From: Geothrix paludis
Lineage (GTDB): Bacteria > Acidobacteriota > Holophagae > Holophagales > Holophagaceae
DNA: 64,000 nucleotides
Direction of reading: 5' to 3'
Assembly: GCF_022808815.1 (NCBI RefSeq)
Contig: NZ_JAKZLC010000001.1
Location: forward strand, 806,001-870,000
Below the pieces are notes generated by a model. That model ran no database searches, was not told the DNA's origin, and saw only the letters and a program-made list of their open reading frames with translations. Positions 34,474-45,547 of this stretch are shown in pieces. The position numbers and the translations under genes were made by a program. The stretch's first letter is position 1; each line of letters opens with the position of its first letter.

Positions 34474-34575
34474 GTCGCCCCCCGGTTCCAGCGTAACCCG
34501 CGACGGACCTTCCTGCATGCGGACACATAGAGCGCTACACTGGACGCAGGACCCTTGCACGAATGCGGAGCGGCC

Positions 34576-35334
34576 ATGCCCAAGGGCATCCTGGAAAGTC
34601 TGTTGAGTGGAGAGGGCACGATCGTGCCTCACGTCCAGCCCATGTACCGGCTGCAGGACAATCGCATGGTGGCCCAGGAGTACCTGGCCCGCCACCTGGA
34701 CAAGGCAGGCATCACCCATCCCGTCGGCCCGATCCTGCAGAACCCCACCCTCCCGCCGGAGGATCGGCTGACCCTGGACCTGCGCTTTCTCGACGCCACG
34801 TTCGCGGCCCTGGCTCAGCGCGGAACCGGCAGCCACCTCCACTTCGTGAACCTCGAGCCCGTGAGCCTGGAAGCGCCGGGGTTCTGGGCGCGCCTGCCCC
34901 GCTGGCTGGAAGCTCTGTCCTTTCCCGTGGAATGCGTGGTGATGGAGTTCACCGAATCCCAGGGCATGCACGACCTCGAGGCGCTCCAGACCTACGCCAA
35001 GCGGCTGCGCGACGTCGGTCTGCGCGTGGCCGTGGATGACCTCGGGGCCGGCGTGGCGAGCCTCACGCAGATGGCGCGGCTGGCGCCGGATTACATCAAG
35101 GCCGACCGGAGCCTCGTGGAGCAGGTCCACCGCCGCCCCTACCAGGCCGCCCTCCTCAACGCGCTCTCCCACTTCGCCCGGCACATGTGCATCGGCTTCA
35201 TCGCCGAAGGCATCGAGACGATGGAGGAGTTGGAAGCCGTCATGGACGCGGACGTGCCCTGGGGCCAGGGCTTCATCCTGGGCCAGCCGTGGCCCACGCG
35301 GCCGAAGCCGCTGGCCATCGATCCTCTCGCTTAG
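34576..35334 (+). CDS. EAL-domain protein (c-di-GMP phosphodiesterase or sensor)
   Basis: 252 residues, almost only the EAL domain; ATG 34576 follows gcggagc. The signature is QEYLAR, so the eponymous EAL is EYL. Other catalytic positions look kept: N in FVNLEP, E in VMEFTES, the double Asp in VDDLGAGVASL, K in IKADRS, E in AEGIET, and Q in GQGFILGQP. Activity is plausible but the loop 6 region (DDLGAG rather than DDFGTG) differs. No sensor domain is attached. It is divergent from murD. Confidence 0.88.
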   Translation: MPKGILESLLSGEGTIVPHVQPMYRLQDNRMVAQEYLARHLDKAGITHPVGPILQNPTLPPEDRLTLDLRFLDATFAALAQRGTGSHLHFVNLEPVSLEAPGFWARLPRWLEALSFPVECVVMEFTESQGMHDLEALQTYAKRLRDVGLRVAVDDLGAGVASLTQMARLAPDYIKADRSLVEQVHRRPYQAALLNALSHFARHMCIGFIAEGIETMEELEAVMDADVPWGQGFILGQPWPTRPKPLAIDPLA

Positions 35335-35406: not shown

Positions 35407-38400
35407 TTACTGGACGACAAAATCATCCAGGTTCAGCCGCGCCGCAGGCGTCCCCTCCACCGCCAGCTTGAAGCGGACCGGCCCCGTGAGGGTCAGGCCG
35501 CTGAAAGTCGCGGTGCTGAGCGTGTTGGAGCTGGCGGTCACGGAGTTCCCGATCTTCGTCCAGGTGGCGCCCTGGTCGTTCGATGCGTAGAGCGAGAAGG
35601 TGGCGGTCTTGGCGTTCGTGGCGTCGGTCTTGTAGACGCCGTAGGCCACGCTGACCGAAGAGACGGGCGTGGCGGCGTCGCCGTAATCGAAGTTCATCCA
35701 GACGGCGCTCCCGGCCACGGCCTTCATGCGCAGGCCCTGGCCATCGTTCTTGGCATCATTGGCATCTCCGGCATAGCTCATGGTCGTGACGAAATGCCAG
35801 GAGCCGGTGGAGAGAGTGTAGTCTCCCGTGGCGTACACAGTGCTCGTTCCAGGCCAGGTGAAATGCTCGGCCATGCCCGCCGGGGGCGGCGTCGTCCCCA
35901 CATAGAGCGTCAGCGTCTTGGTCACGCTCGCCGAATCGCCGTCGGTGACCTTGAGGGTGAGGGTGACCGTGCCGGTGGCCCCGGCGGCAGGAACAATGTG
36001 CAGGATCTGGTCGGCCATCGTCCCCGTGAAGGTCAGGCCGCTGTTGGGCACCACGGCTTCATCGCTGGACGTGGCCGAGAAGGTGACATTCAGCGGGCTG
36101 ACGTCGTCGCTCACCGTGAAGGGAAGGTCCAGGACGGTGTCTACGGCCATGGAGGCGGACGTTGGAACGCCCGAGACGGTCGGCGCCTGGTTACCCCCAG
36201 TCACTGTGAGCACGCGGATGATCGACCGGCTGGCGCCCAGAGCGTCGGTGGCCGAGAAGGTCACGTTGTAGGTGCCGTTCGCCGTGTAGGTGTGCGTGGC
36301 GTTGGGTGTGGTGGCGGTGGTGCTGTCCCCGAAGTCCCAGCGCACCGAGGCCACGGTGCTGTTGGAACTGGTCGCCTGCCCCTGGAAGGTGTAGCTCGTG
36401 CCGACGGTGGCGGTGCCGTCCCAGCTGGGTTCGACCATGTGGACATTCGGGGCCCCGGTGACCTCGAAGTGGCTGCCCCAGCCACGCACATCCACGTCCG
36501 TCTTGAAGGTCGCCGGCAGGGGCGTGGCAGGGCTCGGGAAGAGGTCGAGTCCTGTGAGCGCCTCAATGCGGGCGACGGACGTGGTGTACTGCTGGATCCC
36601 CGCATCCGAGGCGGCCAGCCCTGATCGGTTGGGCGTGAGGACAGCCACGACCTTGGGCTGGCCTGGAGCCGTTTCCCGGACGACGACTTTCCAGAATCCA
36701 CTGGGGATGCGGACGGGAGCCACGGCGCCCGGCAGCAAGGCCGGACTCGCGTCGAAGACAGGCCCGGTGTAGATCCAGATGCGCCCGCTGGCATCGGCCA
36801 AACCCGGCACCCAGGCGCCGCCACTGCCAGTGAAGCTGCCGCCCACGACCTGCTCGAGGTTGTTCCAGAAGTTGTTGTTGTGGTCGGTATCCTGGGGCGC
36901 CACGTTGGACAGGCGGCAGGAATCCGTGCCGGCCTGGGACCCGTAACGGTAGGCCAGGTCGGACATCATCACCTGGTGGCCTCGGGTCCACCCGCTGCCG
37001 GAGTAGTCCGCATCCGTCACCTGGGGCGCGGCCAAGCGGTCATCGGCCAGGAAGGTGCGGGTCCCATTCGCAAAGGCGGTCATGAACTTGAAGTTGGCGT
37101 AGGCCGTCCAGGCGGGATTCTTCAAGGTTTCGTCATAACCCAGGCGGAAAGCCCCATGGGGGAAGGCAGTGCCCACGTTGTAGGAAGGAAGAACCGTGAG
37201 CGGCCGGGCGGGAACGGTCATAGGGTCCCCGGCGTAGGTGGGCTCCGGCGCCATGACCGTGAGGGTGGCGTTCTGGCTGGTCGTGCTGCCGACGTCATCC
37301 GTGACCACCACGCTGAACTGGGCACTGATCTCCTGGAGGTCCGTGCCGGTGACCACGTAGCTCGCCTGGGTGGCTCCGGAGATGTCCACACCGTTCTTCC
37401 GCCACTGATAGCGGAGGGTGCCTGTTCCGGTGGCCGAGACGGTGAAGGTGCCTCCATCGGGCGCGATGGCGGTGAGGCTCTGCGGCTGGGTGGTGATCAC
37501 CGGGACATTGCTGTCGGCCGGATTCACCGTGAGTGCCGCTGCGGCGCTCGTCGTGCTGGCGCTGGTGCCGTTCAGGGCGTTGGTCACCACCACGGCGTAG
37601 CTGCCGGCGTCCGTCAGAGCCACCGGGTCGAAGACCAGGGTGCTGGCCGTCTGGCCCGCGAGATCCGCTCCGTTCTTCTTCCACTGGTAGCTGAGCGTTC
37701 CGTTCCCCGTAGCCGTAACGCTGAAGGTCGCCCTGCCTCCCTCCAGCACGGTCTGCGCGGCGGGCTGACCGGTGATGACCGGCTGCGTGGCCACCGGATT
37801 CACGGTGAGGTTGGCGGCGGCACTGGTGGCGGTCGCCGCGGTGCCGTTCAGGGTGTTGGTCACCACCACCGCGTAGCCGCCGGCATCCGCCAGGGCCACC
37901 GGGTCGAGAATCAGGCTGCTGGCCATCTGGCCCGCGAGGTCCCCTCCGTTCTTCTTCCACTGGTAGGTGAGCGTGCCGTTCCCCGTGGCCGTGACGCTGA
38001 AGGTCGCCCTGGTTCCTTCCAGCACGGTCTGCGCGGCGGGCTGACCGGTGATGACCGGCTGCGTGGCCACCGGATTCACGGTGAGGGCCGCGGCGGCACT
38101 GGTGGCGGTCGCCGCGGTGCCGTTCAGGGTGTTGGTCACCAATACCGCGAAGCTGCCGGCATCCGCCAGGGCCACCGGATCGAGAATCAGGCTGCTGGCC
38201 GTCTGGCCCGCGAGATCCCCTCCGTTCTTCCTCCACTGGTAGCTGAGCGCGCCGTTCCCCGTGGCCGTGACGCTGAAGACCGCCTTGGCCCCTTCCAGCA
38301 CGGTCTGCGCGGCGGGCTGGCCTGTGATGACCGGCTGAGTGGCCACCGGATTCACGGTGAGGCTGGCGGCGGCACTGGTGGCGGTCGCCGCGGTGCCGTT

Positions 38401-38754
38401 CAGGGTGTTGGTCACCATCACCGCGTAGCTGCCGGCATCCGCCAGGGTCACCGGGTCGAGAACCAGGCTGCTGGCCGTCTGGCCGGCGAGGTCCCCTCCG
38501 TTCTTCTTCCACTGGTAGGTGAGCGTGCCGTTCCCCGTGGCCGTGACGCTGAAGCTGGCCCTCGTCCCTTCCAGTGCCGTCTGCGCGGTGGGCTGGGAAA
38601 CGATCACAGGCGTGGCCGCCTGGACCACGGGCATGCCCGTTCCACCCCCGGCGGCGGCGCCTCCTCCCCCGCCTCCACAGGCGGCCATCAGGGCCAGGGC
38701 TCCGACCATGAGGGTCGTGGCGATCAGGTTGCAGGTTGTTCTACGGAGGCTCAT
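35407..38754 (-). CDS. large lipoprotein: Ig-like repeats, DNA/RNA non-specific endonuclease and PKD domains
   Basis: 1115 residues from ATG 38754 (38766 also possible). The signal ends in the lipobox LMAAC (C26), followed by a Gly-rich tether. Four near-identical 92-residue Ig-like domains (about 50-415) and a fifth divergent one (to about 505) follow. Then comes a NUC1/NucA-type endonuclease domain (about 515-760): TRGHQ with catalytic H593, and a downstream SNVAPQ...NNNFWNNLEQ segment that supplies the metal-binding Asn. A PKD domain (WDFGDS) follows, then a cadherin-like segment and a C-terminal beta-sandwich. The first residue of the usual DRGH is Thr here. It probably sits on the cell surface and degrades external nucleic acid. 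Confidence 0.85.
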   Translation of the reverse strand: MSLRRTTCNLIATTLMVGALALMAACGGGGGGAAAGGGTGMPVVQAATPVIVSQPTAQTALEGTRASFSVTATGNGTLTYQWKKNGGDLAGQTASSLVLDPVTLADAGSYAVMVTNTLNGTAATATSAAASLTVNPVATQPVITGQPAAQTVLEGAKAVFSVTATGNGALSYQWRKNGGDLAGQTASSLILDPVALADAGSFAVLVTNTLNGTAATATSAAAALTVNPVATQPVITGQPAAQTVLEGTRATFSVTATGNGTLTYQWKKNGGDLAGQMASSLILDPVALADAGGYAVVVTNTLNGTAATATSAAANLTVNPVATQPVITGQPAAQTVLEGGRATFSVTATGNGTLSYQWKKNGADLAGQTASTLVFDPVALTDAGSYAVVVTNALNGTSASTTSAAAALTVNPADSNVPVITTQPQSLTAIAPDGGTFTVSATGTGTLRYQWRKNGVDISGATQASYVVTGTDLQEISAQFSVVVTDDVGSTTSQNATLTVMAPEPTYAGDPMTVPARPLTVLPSYNVGTAFPHGAFRLGYDETLKNPAWTAYANFKFMTAFANGTRTFLADDRLAAPQVTDADYSGSGWTRGHQVMMSDLAYRYGSQAGTDSCRLSNVAPQDTDHNNNFWNNLEQVVGGSFTGSGGAWVPGLADASGRIWIYTGPVFDASPALLPGAVAPVRIPSGFWKVVVRETAPGQPKVVAVLTPNRSGLAASDAGIQQYTTSVARIEALTGLDLFPSPATPLPATFKTDVDVRGWGSHFEVTGAPNVHMVEPSWDGTATVGTSYTFQGQATSSNSTVASVRWDFGDSTTATTPNATHTYTANGTYNVTFSATDALGASRSIIRVLTVTGGNQAPTVSGVPTSASMAVDTVLDLPFTVSDDVSPLNVTFSATSSDEAVVPNSGLTFTGTMADQILHIVPAAGATGTVTLTLKVTDGDSASVTKTLTLYVGTTPPPAGMAEHFTWPGTSTVYATGDYTLSTGSWHFVTTMSYAGDANDAKNDGQGLRMKAVAGSAVWMNFDYGDAATPVSSVSVAYGVYKTDATNAKTATFSLYASNDQGATWTKIGNSVTASSNTLSTATFSGLTLTGPVRFKLAVEGTPAARLNLDDFVVQ
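37504..38607 (-). repeat. four tandem 276-bp coding repeats (Ig-like domains)
   Basis: Four consecutive units of exactly 276 bp. Matching points include ggctgcgtgg at 37781 and 38057 and the variant ggctgagtgg at 38333. They encode near-identical 92-residue Ig-like domains. The high DNA identity points to recent duplication and possible copy-number change. Confidence 0.85.
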
Positions 38755-39082
38755 CTGTGCTCTCATCCTTCCGGATCCAGGCGGTGGTCAGGGCAGGCCG
38801 ATTCTGGCCGACTCGGCCCATGCATCCAGGCAGACATGGCGGCCACCACAGGTGGTCGATCTGTCCGGATGGACACCCACAAGACTCAATTTTTGGAAGT
38901 TTCCAGCCTAGACGAGGTCAGGCCCGGCCCCAATAGAAAACCCCGGGGTTACATTTTTTTTACCGCTGACGCATAAAACGCACACATAGAATAGCCATAC
39001 CTCGTCTATCATAGCTCGTTCCCCTCAGACCGGTGACCCCGGATCCCCCCGCGTTTAAGCCCATAGGGCAAGGAGCCTATTG
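38755..39082. other. divergent intergenic region before the TonB-type receptor
   Basis: 328 bp without a gene, between the divergent endonuclease lipoprotein and receptor genes. The part from about 38935 to 39015 is AT-rich, with a T run at 38954-38961 and tagaat at 38987, a possible -10 element for the receptor gene. No clear -35 at proper spacing and no riboswitch-like structure was recognised. Confidence 0.4.
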
Positions 39083-42000
39083 ATGCGATTGCGTTCAACT
39101 CCAATTCTGCTTACGGCCCTGGCTTGTACCGTCATCGGACATGCCCAGACCAGCACGACTTCCGGAGCGATCCGGGGCCTGGTGAAGTCCCGGCAAGGTG
39201 CGACCGTGAAGGGTGCCACGCTGGCCGCCCGGAACATCGACACCGGGTTCTCCCAGACCGTGAGCACCAATGAACGCGGGGAGTACCAATTCGCGTTCCT
39301 TCCCGTTGGCGCCTACGACGTGACAGTCAGCGCCCCGGGCCTCCGATCCGGCAGGTCGGCCCATATCCGCGCAAGCCTGGGACAGACGACAGACCTGAAC
39401 TTCACCCTGGATTCGGCGGAGGCTGGAGCCATGGTGGAGGTCGTCGCCCAATCGGAAGGCCTCGACGTCGCCCAGATCAACACCCAGACCTCCATCACGC
39501 AGGACCTGGTCGAGGCCGTTCCCGTCAACGGGCGCAACTTCACGGATCTCGTCCAGCTGACACCCGGCGCCTCCGTCGGAGCCACCAGCTACTACACCTC
39601 CGTGGAAGGCGCCCGCGGCGTCCAGAACAACCTCCAGATCGACGGCGCCAGCTTCAATTCAAAGTTCAACACCGAGCAGCGCGGCGGGACCCGCATTCCC
39701 TTCACCTTCGGCCAGGACTCCATCAAGGAGCTCCAGGTCATCACCAATTCCTTCGACGCCCAGTACGGCGACGCGGTGGGAGCGGTCGTCAATGCCGTGA
39801 CCAAGACCGGAACCAATGAACCCAGCGGCATGGCATTCATCCTGTTCCGGCCCAGCAGCCTGGTCGCGAAGGTCAAGCCGGTGCCCTACGACCCGAAGGG
39901 CAGCGTCAACGATCCGGACGTCCGCACCCGGAACTTCCATTCGACCCAGGCCGGATTCAACTTCGGCGGGCCCATCATCAAAGATCGGCTCCACTACTTC
40001 GTCAACGTCGAAGCCTCCCGCACGAGCGAGGACAGCGTTCCCTCCTTCGGCTACAACGACGCCTACACCGGCAATGGAACGGCCAACTTCAACACCTTCT
40101 TCGGGGCGGGAGGCATGGGATCCCTCCTGGTCACCATGCCCGGCCGGACCCTGGCCCAGGAGAACAAGTCCGCCTGGGCCGATCGGCAGACCAACCTGAC
40201 GGTCATGGGACGCCTGGATTGGACCATCAACACGGACCACCGCGCCTCCATCCGCCTGAACTCCCAGACCTACGAAGGACTCAACGACATCTACCCCGGC
40301 ACCCGCCGGAGCGACACCGCGGAATCCGGCAACTCGACGATGAAGTTCTCGAGCCTGTCCACGGTGCTGGAGCTCAACTCGATCCTCGGCCCCAGCCTGG
40401 TCAACGAAGCCCGCATCCAGTTCGCCAACGAGAAGCGCCCCACCACCCCGAACACGACCCTCTCGGCTCCGGTCCGGATGGCCCGCATCGACAACAGCTA
40501 CATCATCAACGCCGGTCAGTACTACATCGACCCCCGGAACACCGAGGAGAAGACCTTCCAGCTCCAGGACAACCTCACCTTCTTCAGCGGCGACTGGACG
40601 ATCAAGGGCGGGGTGGACTTCCAGAAGGTCAGCATGAAGAACCGCTTCCTTCCCAGCGGACGGGGGAACTGGACCTTCACCACCTACGACGCGGCCAACC
40701 AGTGGTTTGCCGGGACCCTCAGCGGCACCGGCGTGAGCTACACCCAGGGCTATTCCCCCCTGGATGGCATGAGCGATTTCGATCTGGATTTCCTGGCCGG
40801 GTATGCCCAGGTCCAGTACGGCGGCCTCTTCAACCAGCGTCTGCTGCTCAGCCTTGGAGCCCGCTACACCGCCGAGCGCTGGAGCGGGAACCCCAACCCC
40901 AACTCCAAGCTGCAGGGCCTGGACCGCGCTCCCAACGACAGCGCGCTGGACCCCCGCTTCGGATTCTCGTTCGACCTCTTCGGCAACCGCCGCACCATCC
41001 TGCGCGGCGGATACGGCTGGTTCAGCGTGGGCAACCCCGGCCAGACGACGTCCGGCGCGATGATGAACAACGGCATCAACCTGCAGTCCTATTACGTCTC
41101 ATCTTCTTCCTCGACGGGCCTGCCCATGTTCCAGCCCGGCGGGGTGCTTTCCGCCGGGTCCCGCTGGTCCGGCCCCGTGACGGGAGCCGGATCCCTCACC
41201 GCTGTTCCGCTGGACCAGCTGAGCGCCCTGCCGAAGGATTCCATCACGGTCACCCTGATTGATCCCGAGGCCAAGATGGCCCAGGCACGGACGGTCTCCC
41301 TGGGTCTCGAGCACGACTTCGGCAACGGCTACACGGGGGCGATCCGGGGAACCTACAAGCAGTTCAGGAACCTGCAGTACGCCGTCAACATCAACTTGGC
41401 CCAGTATGCGGACGGCAGCACCACCACGTTGAGCAAGGCCATCTACAACGACGGCTACTCGAGCACCTGGAACCACTTCTCGAATGCGACGGCCAATCGC
41501 CCGTACGCGGCCATCGTGCGGGGCCGCCAGCTCGACCTATCCGGCTTCGGCGACGTCATCCTCTCGAAATACGATGGCGAGGGCCGCTACAAGAGCCTGG
41601 TGCTCGAGGGATCCAAGCGCACGAACATGGGCTGGGGGTTCCGGGGCAGCCTCACCTTCTCCAAGGCCGAGGACAACAACTCCAACGACCGGGCCACCCT
41701 CACCTCCACCAATGCCCTGACGGAAAACCCCGCGGATCCCCTCGAATCCTATGCCCTGAGCGACAACGACCACAAATTCCGGGCGGTGCTCGCCTGGTAT
41801 GCGCCCGCCTTCTTCGGGGTCCAGGTCTCCGGCATCACCACCTACACGACTGGACGTCCCTTCACCGCCGTCTACTACGACGACATCAACGGGGATGGCA
41901 AGTATCTCGACACCGCGAACGGCCGCAACACATTCCGGCAGCCGGCGGCCAAGACGTTCGATCTGCGCCTGTCCCGGACGTTCAAGGTCGCCCGCAAAGC

Positions 42001-42184
42001 AAGCCTCCAGGGCATCCTCGATGTCTTCAACGTCTTCAACTGGGCCAACCAGTACACCTCCCAGACGACCTACGCCAAGAACTCGGCCACCTATCCGGAC
42101 AGCTACTCGGCGATCTTCGGAGCCATCGACCGGCCCGACAACCGCACGAGGGAGGTCCAGTTCACCCTCAAGTTCCGCTTCTAG
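39083..42184 (+). CDS. Oar-like TonB-dependent outer-membrane receptor
   Basis: 1033 residues from ATG 39083, 7 bp after aggag. A signal peptide (to about AHAQ) is followed by a carboxypeptidase-regulatory-like beta sandwich (about 28-110: GAIRGLVKSRQGATVKGATLAARN...GEYQFAFLPVGAYDVTV). Then comes a plug domain (ITQDLVEAVPVNGRNFTDLVQLTPG, IKELQVITNSFDAQYG) and a long beta barrel ending in VQFTLKFRF with a C-terminal Phe. It resembles Myxococcus Oar and the numerous acidobacterial receptors of this type. The substrate is unknown. The NHL lipoprotein follows directly, so they may form one transport or secretion unit. Confidence 0.92.
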   Translation: MRLRSTPILLTALACTVIGHAQTSTTSGAIRGLVKSRQGATVKGATLAARNIDTGFSQTVSTNERGEYQFAFLPVGAYDVTVSAPGLRSGRSAHIRASLGQTTDLNFTLDSAEAGAMVEVVAQSEGLDVAQINTQTSITQDLVEAVPVNGRNFTDLVQLTPGASVGATSYYTSVEGARGVQNNLQIDGASFNSKFNTEQRGGTRIPFTFGQDSIKELQVITNSFDAQYGDAVGAVVNAVTKTGTNEPSGMAFILFRPSSLVAKVKPVPYDPKGSVNDPDVRTRNFHSTQAGFNFGGPIIKDRLHYFVNVEASRTSEDSVPSFGYNDAYTGNGTANFNTFFGAGGMGSLLVTMPGRTLAQENKSAWADRQTNLTVMGRLDWTINTDHRASIRLNSQTYEGLNDIYPGTRRSDTAESGNSTMKFSSLSTVLELNSILGPSLVNEARIQFANEKRPTTPNTTLSAPVRMARIDNSYIINAGQYYIDPRNTEEKTFQLQDNLTFFSGDWTIKGGVDFQKVSMKNRFLPSGRGNWTFTTYDAANQWFAGTLSGTGVSYTQGYSPLDGMSDFDLDFLAGYAQVQYGGLFNQRLLLSLGARYTAERWSGNPNPNSKLQGLDRAPNDSALDPRFGFSFDLFGNRRTILRGGYGWFSVGNPGQTTSGAMMNNGINLQSYYVSSSSSTGLPMFQPGGVLSAGSRWSGPVTGAGSLTAVPLDQLSALPKDSITVTLIDPEAKMAQARTVSLGLEHDFGNGYTGAIRGTYKQFRNLQYAVNINLAQYADGSTTTLSKAIYNDGYSSTWNHFSNATANRPYAAIVRGRQLDLSGFGDVILSKYDGEGRYKSLVLEGSKRTNMGWGFRGSLTFSKAEDNNSNDRATLTSTNALTENPADPLESYALSDNDHKFRAVLAWYAPAFFGVQVSGITTYTTGRPFTAVYYDDINGDGKYLDTANGRNTFRQPAAKTFDLRLSRTFKVARKASLQGILDVFNVFNWANQYTSQTTYAKNSATYPDSYSAIFGAIDRPDNRTREVQFTLKFRF

Positions 42185-42193
42185 GAGGCCGGC

Positions 42194-45100
42194 ATGAATC
42201 CTTTCCATTCCGCCTCGCCCCTTTCAGGAGTCCGCATGTCCATCCAATCACTGCGCCAGAGGGCCGGCCGGGCCTTGATGGCCTTGTCCCTGGGCGCGTC
42301 CCTGGGCCTCGGCGCCCTCCAGCTCGCCTGCGCCAAGAACGACAGCAGCTACGAGCACCCCGCCCCTGCCATCTCCTCGTTCCAGGTTTCCCAGACGAAT
42401 TCCTTCCCCACCGACCCGACGAAGCGGAAGACTGCCGAAAGCATCGCGGTCGGCGGGAGCGTCTGGTGCCTGGCCAACTTCGGGGCCAAGGATGGCTCCG
42501 CGACCGTGGCGCCGGGCAACATCCCGGTCACCAGCAATGTCCCTTTCCAGATCACCAACATTACCACTTCCACTATCTACACGCTCACCGTCACGAGCGG
42601 CGACGGGCAGAAGACTACCGCCACGATTTCAGTCACCGTGCTGACAGTCCCTTCGGGCCTGGTCTACGCCAACGAGGACGCCACCTACTACGTGGATCTG
42701 CAGATCCCCAGCAATGGACCCACCGCGATCGTGGGCAGCGCGCCCATCACCTACAGCGTGGACCCCGCTCTGCCTGCGGGTCTTGTCCTTGATGCGAACA
42801 CGGGCATCATCACCGGCACCCCACAGGTCAGCACGCCCCAGGCCGCCTACACCGTGAAGGCCGCCAACACGGTGGGCAGCACGACCCGTCCCCTCAAGAT
42901 CACCGTGGCCGCCACGCCGCTCACGTTCGGGATCAACCCCACGGCCATCTACCTAGGGTCAAGCGCCATCCTATCTTGGGACGCTTCCTCAGTGCCCGGG
43001 GTGTTCAGCGCCGTAACCATCTCAGCCAATCCTGCGGATGCGACCCTCGGAACCGGCCCCTTCAGCCTCTCCGGCACCAAGAATGTCAGCCCGATCGCCA
43101 CCACGACCTACACCCTGACGGCCACACCGGCCAACGGGGGGGCCCCCGTGATCCGCAATGCCGGAGTCACCGTCGGCCCTGCGCCCGTGACCATCACCTC
43201 CTTCAGCTATGCGCCGACGAAGATTTTCTATGGCGGATCGACCACGCTCAGCTGGTCCTACACCGGTCTGCCCGACGTCCTGACACTCAATGGCGCGAAC
43301 GCCCTTGGCAGCCTGAGTGCCGACGTCACTCCGCTCCGCCGCCAGTCCTTCACCCTCGTCGGCTCCAACAACCTCGGCGGAGACACCCGCACGATCAAGG
43401 TTCCCAGCAAGGGCCTGCACCACATCGCGGGCTCCTTCAGCTCCGGCCGCGGAAATGTCGATGGCGGCGTGGACGCGCTCACCGGGTTCTCGACCGCCCG
43501 GTTCTACCGGCCCAATGCCGTCGTCTGGGACGAGAAGGCCAATGACGGCACGATGGTGGTGGCCGACTACAGCGGGAACCTCGTGCGCCGGATCACGCCG
43601 GATCGCAAGGTGACCACCATCGCCGGCACGCCCGGTCTGGTGGGGAACCAGGCAGTTCAGACCGACACCACCACCCTGCTGACCCCCCGCAACATGGCGG
43701 TGGATCCCGTCACCGGCGACATCTACGTCGGTGGAGAGGGCTACACCATCAAGCGGCTCCTGAAGCTCGCCCCCAATGGTGACGGCACCTACACGCCCAG
43801 CCTCGTGGCCGGCTTCACGCTCAACACCAACGCTCTGGTGATCGACGCCAACCGGATGATGTATTTCGTCGAGTTCAGCGCCAGCGCGGGGAACTTCTAC
43901 ACCATGGATCTCACCTCGGCTTCCCCCGCGCCGACCCTGGTCGCCAACCTCTATACCAGCGGCGTTTCCAGCGCCACAGCCATGGCCAGGGACTTCAGCG
44001 GTGGCCGCAAGCTCCTCTACGTGGTCTGCAGCAACAAGGTGATGAAGATCGACCTCTCGGGCGCCAGCCCGGTGGCCACCCTCTTCGCCGGAACTGGCAC
44101 CGCGGGCTTCGCCGACAATGCGTCCGCCGCTTCCGGCCTGCTCCGCGGTCCCCAGGGCGTGTCCGCCGACACCACTGGGAACGTCTACATCGCGGACCGC
44201 GACAACTTCGCCGTGCGCATGGTGCCCGCCTCCGGCCCCCTGGCCGGGGCGCTGATCACCATCGCCGGCAGGACGGGAACGGCCGGTGAAGGTTATGCCT
44301 CCTCCAGCATCACCCTGGACGGCACCGCCAACCTACCGACCTCCACCACCGCTTGCCTCAGCAATGTCTACTACGTGCTGGCACAGGGTGATGGGGCGGC
44401 TGGTTCCAGGATCTTCGTGGCCGACGCCGGGGCGGGCTTCGACAACCAGGCCATCCGCGTCATGACGGTTTCCTCCCCATCCGCCGGACAGCTGACCTAC
44501 ACGCTCGACGACCCCTCCAAGCCCGCAGGCTACGCCCATGCCGGCTCCCCGCGAGTGGTCGGATATGCCGATGGTGTGGGCGTCAACGCCAAGTTCACCT
44601 TCGGCAATGCCTCCGGCGCCAACCTGGCCACCTTGCCTGACGGCAGCCTGACCTTCGCGGCGGATACCGTGAACAACCTCGTCCGCGTCATCGCCTCGGA
44701 CGGCACGGTCACCACCCTGAAGGACGCCACGGCCACCAACATCGCCTTCTCCACCCCGAAGAGCGTGGCCGTCCAGGTGAACCCCACCACCAAGGCCCTC
44801 GTGGCCCTGTTCGTGGGAGATACCGGCGCCACCAAGAAGCTCCGGAAGTTCACCCCCAATGGCGACGGCACCTTCACCGAGGCCGTCTTCACCGTGAGCG
44901 GTGGGACCTATCCGGCTTCGCCGAACCACGCTGGCCTGGCCGTGGATTCCACGAACGGCCTGGTCTATGCCACCGACGCCACCCTGGCCCGGGTCTTCCG
45001 GATCGACCCCGCCACTGGCGTCAGTTCGGACTTCGTGGCCGCTCCCGGCACCAATCCCACTGGCATCGCCGTGGCCGCGAACGGCTCCGTCTGGGTGTCG

Positions 45101-45547
45101 GTCACCGGCGCCAGCCAGGTGAAGTGTTTCGACGCCTCGGGCGCCCTGCTGCTCACCGTGGGTACCGGCACAGCCGGCTGGGCTGACGGCTCCGCGAGTA
45201 CCGCCCAGTTCGCGGCGCCCATCGGCATCGCGACTGCGGGCAGCATCGTCTACGTGGCGAACTACACTGGCAGCCAGACGTCACCCCAGAACGGCATCCG
45301 CGCGATCGATGCCGTCACTGGCGACGTCACCACCCTGCTCGGAGCCGCGGCCAGCACCACAAACCAGACGCTCTTCGGCCTGAAGCCGGGCTACCTGAAC
45401 CCCGACAATACTGGGAACAATGCGAGCAAGAGCCTCCTGGGCGCGGTGCTCTACGGACCCCAGGGTCTCTCGGCCAACGCGGACGGCGATCTGATGGTCT
45501 CCACGCCGCACTCGGTCTATCAGGTGGTGGCACCCGCCAATCAGTAG
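42194..45547 (+). CDS. NHL-repeat lipoprotein with Ig-like N-terminal domains
   Basis: 1117 residues from ATG 42194, which follows aggaggc overlapping the receptor stop; ATG 42236 (after caggag) gives a more usual signal. The lipobox is LQLAC. Residues about 50-400 hold Ig/putative cadherin-like domains (ITYSVDPALPAGLVLDANTGIITGTP is typical). Residues 410-1100 are a beta propeller of NHL repeats (for example FYRPNAVVWD, LVRRITPDRKVTTIAGTPG, LRGPQGVSADTTGNVYIADRDN). Such propellers bind proteins or polysaccharide. Only 9 bp separate it from the receptor gene, implying a shared transcript and a surface complex. Confidence 0.88.
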   Translation: MNPFHSASPLSGVRMSIQSLRQRAGRALMALSLGASLGLGALQLACAKNDSSYEHPAPAISSFQVSQTNSFPTDPTKRKTAESIAVGGSVWCLANFGAKDGSATVAPGNIPVTSNVPFQITNITTSTIYTLTVTSGDGQKTTATISVTVLTVPSGLVYANEDATYYVDLQIPSNGPTAIVGSAPITYSVDPALPAGLVLDANTGIITGTPQVSTPQAAYTVKAANTVGSTTRPLKITVAATPLTFGINPTAIYLGSSAILSWDASSVPGVFSAVTISANPADATLGTGPFSLSGTKNVSPIATTTYTLTATPANGGAPVIRNAGVTVGPAPVTITSFSYAPTKIFYGGSTTLSWSYTGLPDVLTLNGANALGSLSADVTPLRRQSFTLVGSNNLGGDTRTIKVPSKGLHHIAGSFSSGRGNVDGGVDALTGFSTARFYRPNAVVWDEKANDGTMVVADYSGNLVRRITPDRKVTTIAGTPGLVGNQAVQTDTTTLLTPRNMAVDPVTGDIYVGGEGYTIKRLLKLAPNGDGTYTPSLVAGFTLNTNALVIDANRMMYFVEFSASAGNFYTMDLTSASPAPTLVANLYTSGVSSATAMARDFSGGRKLLYVVCSNKVMKIDLSGASPVATLFAGTGTAGFADNASAASGLLRGPQGVSADTTGNVYIADRDNFAVRMVPASGPLAGALITIAGRTGTAGEGYASSSITLDGTANLPTSTTACLSNVYYVLAQGDGAAGSRIFVADAGAGFDNQAIRVMTVSSPSAGQLTYTLDDPSKPAGYAHAGSPRVVGYADGVGVNAKFTFGNASGANLATLPDGSLTFAADTVNNLVRVIASDGTVTTLKDATATNIAFSTPKSVAVQVNPTTKALVALFVGDTGATKKLRKFTPNGDGTFTEAVFTVSGGTYPASPNHAGLAVDSTNGLVYATDATLARVFRIDPATGVSSDFVAAPGTNPTGIAVAANGSVWVSVTGASQVKCFDASGALLLTVGTGTAGWADGSASTAQFAAPIGIATAGSIVYVANYTGSQTSPQNGIRAIDAVTGDVTTLLGAAASTTNQTLFGLKPGYLNPDNTGNNASKSLLGAVLYGPQGLSANADGDLMVSTPHSVYQVVAPANQ

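Follow-up and report, generated by a model that had tools for sequence, protein, structure and literature searches.

The window analyzed here is a 64-kb stretch of contig 1 of the genome of a soil-dwelling Geothrix (Holophagaceae, Acidobacteriota; 3.41 Mb in nine contigs), and the gene under study encodes a predicted lipid-anchored nuclease on a stalk of immunoglobulin-like (Ig) domains. We found that this gene lies beside genes for an Oar-like outer-membrane receptor and an NHL-repeat lipoprotein, that the three genes stay together in most related genomes that have them, and that nucleases encoded next to the other two carry a lipid-anchor signal. We consider the chances about even that the anchored nuclease and its neighbors form an outer-membrane module for nucleic-acid capture, with recombination in the stalk tuning the reach of the enzyme. 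All the parts belong to known kinds, and the novelty lies in how they are combined and in the pattern of linkage. A sequence-only reading of the window had described the protein as a lipid-anchored Ig stalk with a NUC1-type endonuclease, a PKD domain, and a C-terminal sandwich. The gene is real and was well read: the open reading frame, a lipobox at Cys26, the Pfam domains, and a beta-sandwich model all agree with that description, the anchor being deduced from sequence. That reading missed the neighboring genes and overstated the identity of the repeats and the importance of one motif.

In the module that we propose, the order of parts from the membrane outward would be lipid anchor, Ig stalk, nuclease, PKD domain, Ig-like domain, and a jelly roll at the tip. 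The stalk would keep the NUC1-type domain clear of the membrane, where it would cut extracellular DNA and RNA in the vicinity of the cell; matrix or substrate may be held by the jelly roll at the far end. Fragments would then be bound and imported by the NHL-propeller lipoprotein together with the Oar-like receptor, supplying phosphorus, nitrogen, or nucleosides. The stalk would lengthen or shorten by recombination between Ig units that are nearly identical, and its reach would thereby be tuned. A tethered enzyme beside its receptor would keep the products private, and a receptor-free, unanchored form would not.

Extracellular DNA is a large pool of phosphorus and nitrogen. To our knowledge, private retention of the products of surface cutting in Gram-negative bacteria is understood in detail for glycans and much less so for nucleic acids. 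The tethered, receptor-linked form and the free form occur together in two genomes, making private versus shared foraging directly testable. More tentatively, we suggest that Holophagaceae own a dedicated nucleic-acid foraging machine made of the Oar-like receptor, the NHL lipoprotein, and the tethered nuclease, in which the nuclease would have been swapped between clades with tether and partners kept, and stalk length changed by repeat recombination. The free, unlinked form would be communal, sometimes in the same cell.

Linkage of the nuclease, receptor, and NHL genes

Orthologs of the receptor (matches of at least 69%; all other matches were at most 51%) were present in 8 of 47 genomes of the genus, and orthologs of the NHL gene (E<=1e-60) in exactly the same eight. 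All eight contained the nuclease, compared to 16 of 47 genus-wide (p=4e-5; this and the other linkage p-values are uncorrected for kinship, which inflates their significance). The NHL cut-off was carried from genus to family after the matches were visible; with it, 12 of 12 genomes with an NHL ortholog contained the nuclease, compared to 25 of 77 in the family overall (Fisher p=1.4e-7). At a looser cut-off (E<=1e-40) the nuclease was present in 13 of 17 (p=3e-5). Outside the family, no NHL ortholog was found in 16 other genomes of the class. Counted in the looser test are four receptor-NHL pairs with no nuclease match (G042, G044, G037, and G014; L138-L141, respectively), in which the receptor matches at 49-51% and the NHL protein at about 30-34%. 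These pairs hint that the receptor-NHL family extends further and that its partners differ.

The three genes are neighbors in 10 of the 12 genomes with an NHL ortholog, in two gene orders. The nuclease is divergent from the other two genes in four genomes (the window, G012, G. campi, and G. rubra), and in six (G017, G021, G060, G062, G066, and G067) receptor, NHL gene, and nuclease follow one another on one strand. Contig ends interrupt the NHL gene in G060 and G062, and the receptor-NHL and NHL-nuclease junctions were each observed on separate contigs. The divergent group is flanked by an EAL gene and a gene that we presume from its sequence to be MurD-like; in G017 and G021 the flanking genes encode proteins of 1028 and 393 amino acids. 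The linked locus has at least two chromosomal sites or kinds of flank. Over the linked genomes the receptors remain 65-86% identical, and identity between the nuclease domains falls to 33%.

Linkage is correlated with the type of anchor. Using our own rule for a lipobox (a cysteine after a hydrophobic stretch) rather than a trained predictor, we found a lipobox-like cysteine in 10 of 10 linked nucleases, compared to 3 of 13 unlinked ones (G043, G045, and G065; p=3.6e-4). The other unlinked copies (10 of 13) have a plain signal peptide. G066 and G067 each hold both kinds: one copy is linked and a lipoprotein, the other unlinked and secreted. These 23 copies leave out G029, which lacks its N-terminus, and UBA692, which has the same sequence as G067a; matches in G059, G064, G068, and G062 (C610) and distant extra copies (31-35%) in G065, G066, G067, G068, and G070 also fall outside the comparison.

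In a tree of the nucleases, the linked copies fall in several clades, and well-supported branches force at least four changes of state. With strong support, G021 is placed among the secreted copies, G060 groups with G045, and G062, G066b, and G067b group with G065. G029 and the G065 group form long branches, and the short fragment from G043 was left out. Thus, either the locus retained a tether through changes of the nuclease, or the free form has more than one origin. Anchor and neighbors go together either way.

Several observations weigh against a capture module. In addition to the effect of kinship on the p-values, all three genes are present in G029 and G045 without being side by side. 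Ten nuclease copies occur without receptor or NHL partners, and the enzyme can therefore act alone. The receptor has no Pfam Plug match at E<=0.001 and no relative of solved structure by sequence, so TonB dependence is suggested by its domain order, which is like that of Oar. The locus showed no SusD-like protein; the partner there is an NHL/He_PIG lipoprotein.

The most serious alternative, although we judge it unlikely, is a stand-alone extracellular nuclease that trims extracellular DNA in biofilm or sludge, with the receptor and lipoprotein linked by descent only. It would account for the 10 of 23 compared copies that lack linkage and have a plain signal peptide. It is also consistent with the secreted NUC-type nucleases reported for Acidobacteriota in sludge in the available text of PMC11495043, and with the resemblance of the jelly roll to carbohydrate-binding modules and gingipain adhesin domains. 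Linkage by descent only is harder to reconcile with two gene orders, at least two kinds of flank, and nucleases of different clades, or with the finding that linkage tracks the lipobox even inside two genomes. Of the roles suggested in the sequence-only reading, DNA scavenging is the one that the linked receptor and lipoprotein genes support, and biofilm remodeling is a possible role.

A second alternative concerns the direction of transport: the Oar-like receptor might export the nuclease, or the NHL protein, to the surface rather than import products. In Myxococcus xanthus, Oar is needed for secretion of the protease PopC (PMC6434023, consulted in part), and the window receptor shares with Oar an N-terminal CarboxypepD_reg domain that precedes an outer-membrane barrel. 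It differs in that Oar has a Pfam Plug domain. Because the cognate receptor is missing where nuclease copies are unlinked and have ordinary signal peptides, and because the same source indicates that importing and exporting types are not yet separable by sequence, we consider export improbable.

Turnover of Ig units in the stalk

The capture module that we favor includes a stalk of variable length, and stalk length has changed over evolution, probably through recombination between near-identical Ig units. Five stretches of the protein match Ig_3 in a Pfam scan. Tandem Repeats Finder reported a period of 276 bp with 3.7 copies (37564-38595; score 1698), far above chance. Three units, A1 to A3, have pairwise nucleotide identities of 88.4, 91.3, and 92.8% and a synonymous divergence (dS) of 0.10-0.20. 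Unit B is 79-85% identical to them and has a mosaic structure. Toward the 5' end it matches A3 at 90-93%, and its 3' end is 85% identical to unit 2 of G. campi and of G012 and only 65-70% identical to A1-A3. This mosaic is a mark of recombination within the array. For the fifth unit, C, identity is only 54-56%. The sequence-only reading had counted four nearly identical units of 276 bp; A1-A3 are 88-93% identical, the fourth unit is of 279 bp and recombinant, and the old fifth unit was absent from the count. We thus rejected four equal recent copies in favor of three recent units and a recombinant mosaic.

Compared to G. campi, dS is 0.59 for the rest of the gene and 0.56-0.61 between the A units and campi unit 1. 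Given the dS of 0.10-0.20 among A1-A3, the triplication postdates the separation from G. campi. The ratio of nonsynonymous to synonymous divergence is 0.40-0.66 for the A units and 0.12 for the core, and the A copies therefore diverge in protein faster than the core.

That copy number may vary had been suggested from the window alone, and it does differ among the five close orthologs, in a comparison between species with one genome per species. The window has five Ig units; G012, G. campi, and G. rubra have three each; and G017, a one-contig genome, has four plus three other repeats of about 100 amino acids. Wider relatives have 2 to 7 (G029 was not countable). A constant number in all relatives, named beforehand as grounds for refuting the idea, was not seen. 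In G012 (89.5%) and in G017 (90-97%), units of the same genome are closer to each other than any is to a unit of another species, and two of the non-Ig repeats of G017 are 97.3% identical. Turnover therefore arose separately in several lineages. The units of G. campi (80.4%) and G. rubra (64.9%) have no such within-species likeness. The non-Ig repeats, which start ATHF, replace or add to Ig units in the stalks of G017 (L114) and G021 (L121) and are 56-71% alike between these genomes; they have no credible Pfam name.

The stalk resembles those of Periscope Proteins (SasG, Rib, Sgo_0707, and CdrA), which are described as rod-like, with near-identical folded repeats in variable number (PMC8201768, PMC9704523; both sources partial). 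Like them, it has tandem folded domains of high DNA identity (88-93% for A1-A3). It differs in that variation was seen here among species alone, in having a nuclease as its cargo, and in being anchored by an N-terminal lipid. An anchor followed by an Ig array would be compatible with a rod projecting from the surface, and stalk length probably alters the reach of the enzyme, with reach as a presumably selected trait. Repeat-length variation has mostly been studied in adhesins, and the variable stalk here carries an enzyme. Wall-degrading enzymes with variable repeats are listed in the available part of the Periscope review, and by term counts the word "nuclease" is absent from PMC8201768 and PMC9704523. 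There is also a likeness to the DUF1735 spacers of polysaccharide utilization loci, membrane-bound spacers thought to hold enzymes off the cell; according to PMC11216935, these are confined to Bacteroidota, use another domain, and serve glycan enzymes.

The nuclease and related surface systems

The nuclease domain scores far above the curated Pfam cut-off, and sequence searches with it find Serratia nuclease, EndoG, and EXOG. The catalytic His (H593), the metal-site Asn and Glu (N626 and E634), and a conserved Arg (R537) align with those of these enzymes, and the four columns are invariant over 18 orthologs; the same domain and His/Asn/Glu/Arg columns are found in Moraxella NucM. The window protein departs from this group in having TRGH rather than the DRGH signature, in the position of the domain between an Ig stalk and a PKD/Big/jelly roll region, and in its lipid anchor. 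Its gene is the only Endonuclease_NS gene in the genome. By homology the enzyme probably cuts both DNA and RNA. The nuclease part of the core structure model has low confidence, and for that reason we draw no active-site geometry; a fold search with the model nonetheless lists EndoG and Serratia nuclease.

The TRGH motif had been called unusual. It is common to all six members of the close group (the window, G012, G. campi, G. rubra, G017, and G029), and other relatives have DRGH or SRGH, with SRSH in one linked relative (G062). Human EXOG has SRGH (PMC6547421, in part). Because the first position can be T, D, or S, TRGH is one variant among several and no bar to NUC1 membership, and a special enzyme type is not supported. 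The numbering of H593 given earlier was correct. The same source describes a Ser/Phe pair in EXOG that replaces the Asp/Arg bridge of EndoG; counted by hand, the matching column here is T623 rather than Phe, and we claim no ExoG-like behavior.

The fold class is shared with EndA and NucM (PMC6384898, seen in part), and the genome has a ComEC-family gene (PF03772), as might be expected of an entry nuclease for natural transformation. However, ComEC-family matches are common (10 of 14 control genomes), this gene is some 830 kb distant on the same contig, and no competence gene was recognized in the locus, which makes such a role very improbable. A contact-dependent weapon, the attack on neighbors proposed in the sequence-only reading, would suit a nuclease carried on a surface stalk whose tip may bind, but it is hardly credible given that the nuclease is internal rather than a C-terminal toxin, that no immunity-like gene is adjacent (the neighbors, which are conserved, are the receptor gene and, on the 3' side, an EAL gene), and that nothing was seen to carry the nuclease into another cell.

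The capture module has parallels in nutrient uptake systems. In Flavobacterium, TonB receptors and SusCD-like complexes are induced together with organic-phosphorus enzymes, and loci of the PusCD and TonB-receptor systems likewise combine a receptor and a lipoprotein with an enzyme that cuts phosphodiesters; the extracellular nucleases EndA1/2 are tabulated there as orphans whose Pfam domains differ (all from the available text of PMC8115612). Unlike PusCD, the locus described here joins a tethered nuclease to an Oar-like receptor and an NHL-propeller lipoprotein. Set beside Sus-like polysaccharide utilization loci, it has a co-localized surface hydrolase in 10 of 12 genomes (surface position judged from the lipobox) and no SusD-type partner; its receptor has CarboxypepD_reg and barrel domains and no Plug match at E<=0.001. 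In a study of sludge, outer-membrane-bound nucleases were few (10) and mainly from Bacteroidota (PMC11495043, partial source). Among the matches listed in PubMed Central searches on Geothrix or Acidobacteria and on surface nucleases, a scope that excludes most subscription papers, we saw no description of a nuclease-receptor-NHL locus.

Features of the locus

Table. Coordinates in the window of the stalked nuclease gene, its parts, and its neighbors (res, residues of the nuclease protein).
Feature	Position	Strand	Remarks
EAL-only protein, cyclic di-GMP phosphodiesterase family	34555..35334	+	convergent with nuclease gene
Stalked nuclease gene	35407..38754	-	single uninterrupted open reading frame, 1115 amino acids, stop included; alternative in-frame ATG at 38766
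C-terminal jelly roll (res 951-1115)	35410..35904	-	fold like carbohydrate-binding modules and cleaved adhesins; from predicted model
Bacterial Ig domain Big_9 (res 855-950)	35905..36192	-	marginal: 24.9 bits against cut-off 23.6
PKD domain (res 779-844)	36223..36420	-	Pfam PKD_4
Endonuclease_NS / NUC1 domain (res 535-741)	36532..37152	-	PF01223, 95.4 bits against curated cut-off 23; relatives Serratia nuclease, EndoG, EXOG
TRGH motif (res 590-593)	36976..36987	-	His593 catalytic by homology
Ig unit C (res 418-502)	37249..37503	-	old; found in all five close orthologs
Ig unit B (res 325-417), 279 bp	37504..37782	-	mosaic of A-like 5' part and ortholog-like 3' part
Ig unit A3 (res 233-324)	37783..38058	-	from unit comparison
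Ig unit A2 (res 141-232)	38059..38334	-	88-93% nucleotide identity with A1 and A3
Ig unit A1 (res 49-140)	38335..38610	-	from unit comparison
Signal peptide and lipobox	38677..38754	-	Cys26 after hydrophobic N-terminus; ALMAAC, then glycine run; read from translation
Divergent intergenic region	38767..39079	.	receptor-side half (38900-39079) better conserved, four species
Oar-like outer-membrane receptor	39080..42184	+	CarboxypepD_reg and OMP_b-brl_4; divergent from nuclease; TTG start, then ATG
NHL-repeat / putative-Ig lipoprotein (NHL/He_PIG)	42194..45547	+	9 bp after receptor gene; lipobox LQLAC read from translation

The last 165 residues of the nuclease protein have no Pfam name. They were modeled as a beta-sandwich or jelly roll with a predicted local distance difference test (pLDDT) score of 89.6, and a fold search matched the model to carbohydrate-binding modules, gingipain cleaved-adhesin domains, and reelin repeats (E of about 1e-6 to 1e-4). 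On the basis of this model, the domain may bind something, possibly matrix or substrate. A second secreted protein of the same genome (L003; contig 4, 496-2433) ends in the same jelly roll and has a PKD domain and a weak DUF4350 match below cut-off. In the nucleases of G019, G066a, G070, and G045 (L117, L125, L126, and L128), the jelly roll is replaced by another C-terminal domain with the motif IISQYYEG, which had no Pfam name in the two proteins scanned and which, by eye, we take to be like a lamin-tail domain.

The genome also contains a member of the PF07662 nucleoside transporter family, which we count in favor of the capture module. The NHL match in G. campi (G005, C1:826829-830179) was reported with one internal TAA. 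The EAL gene beside the nuclease is kept in G012, G. campi, and G. rubra and not in G017 or G021.

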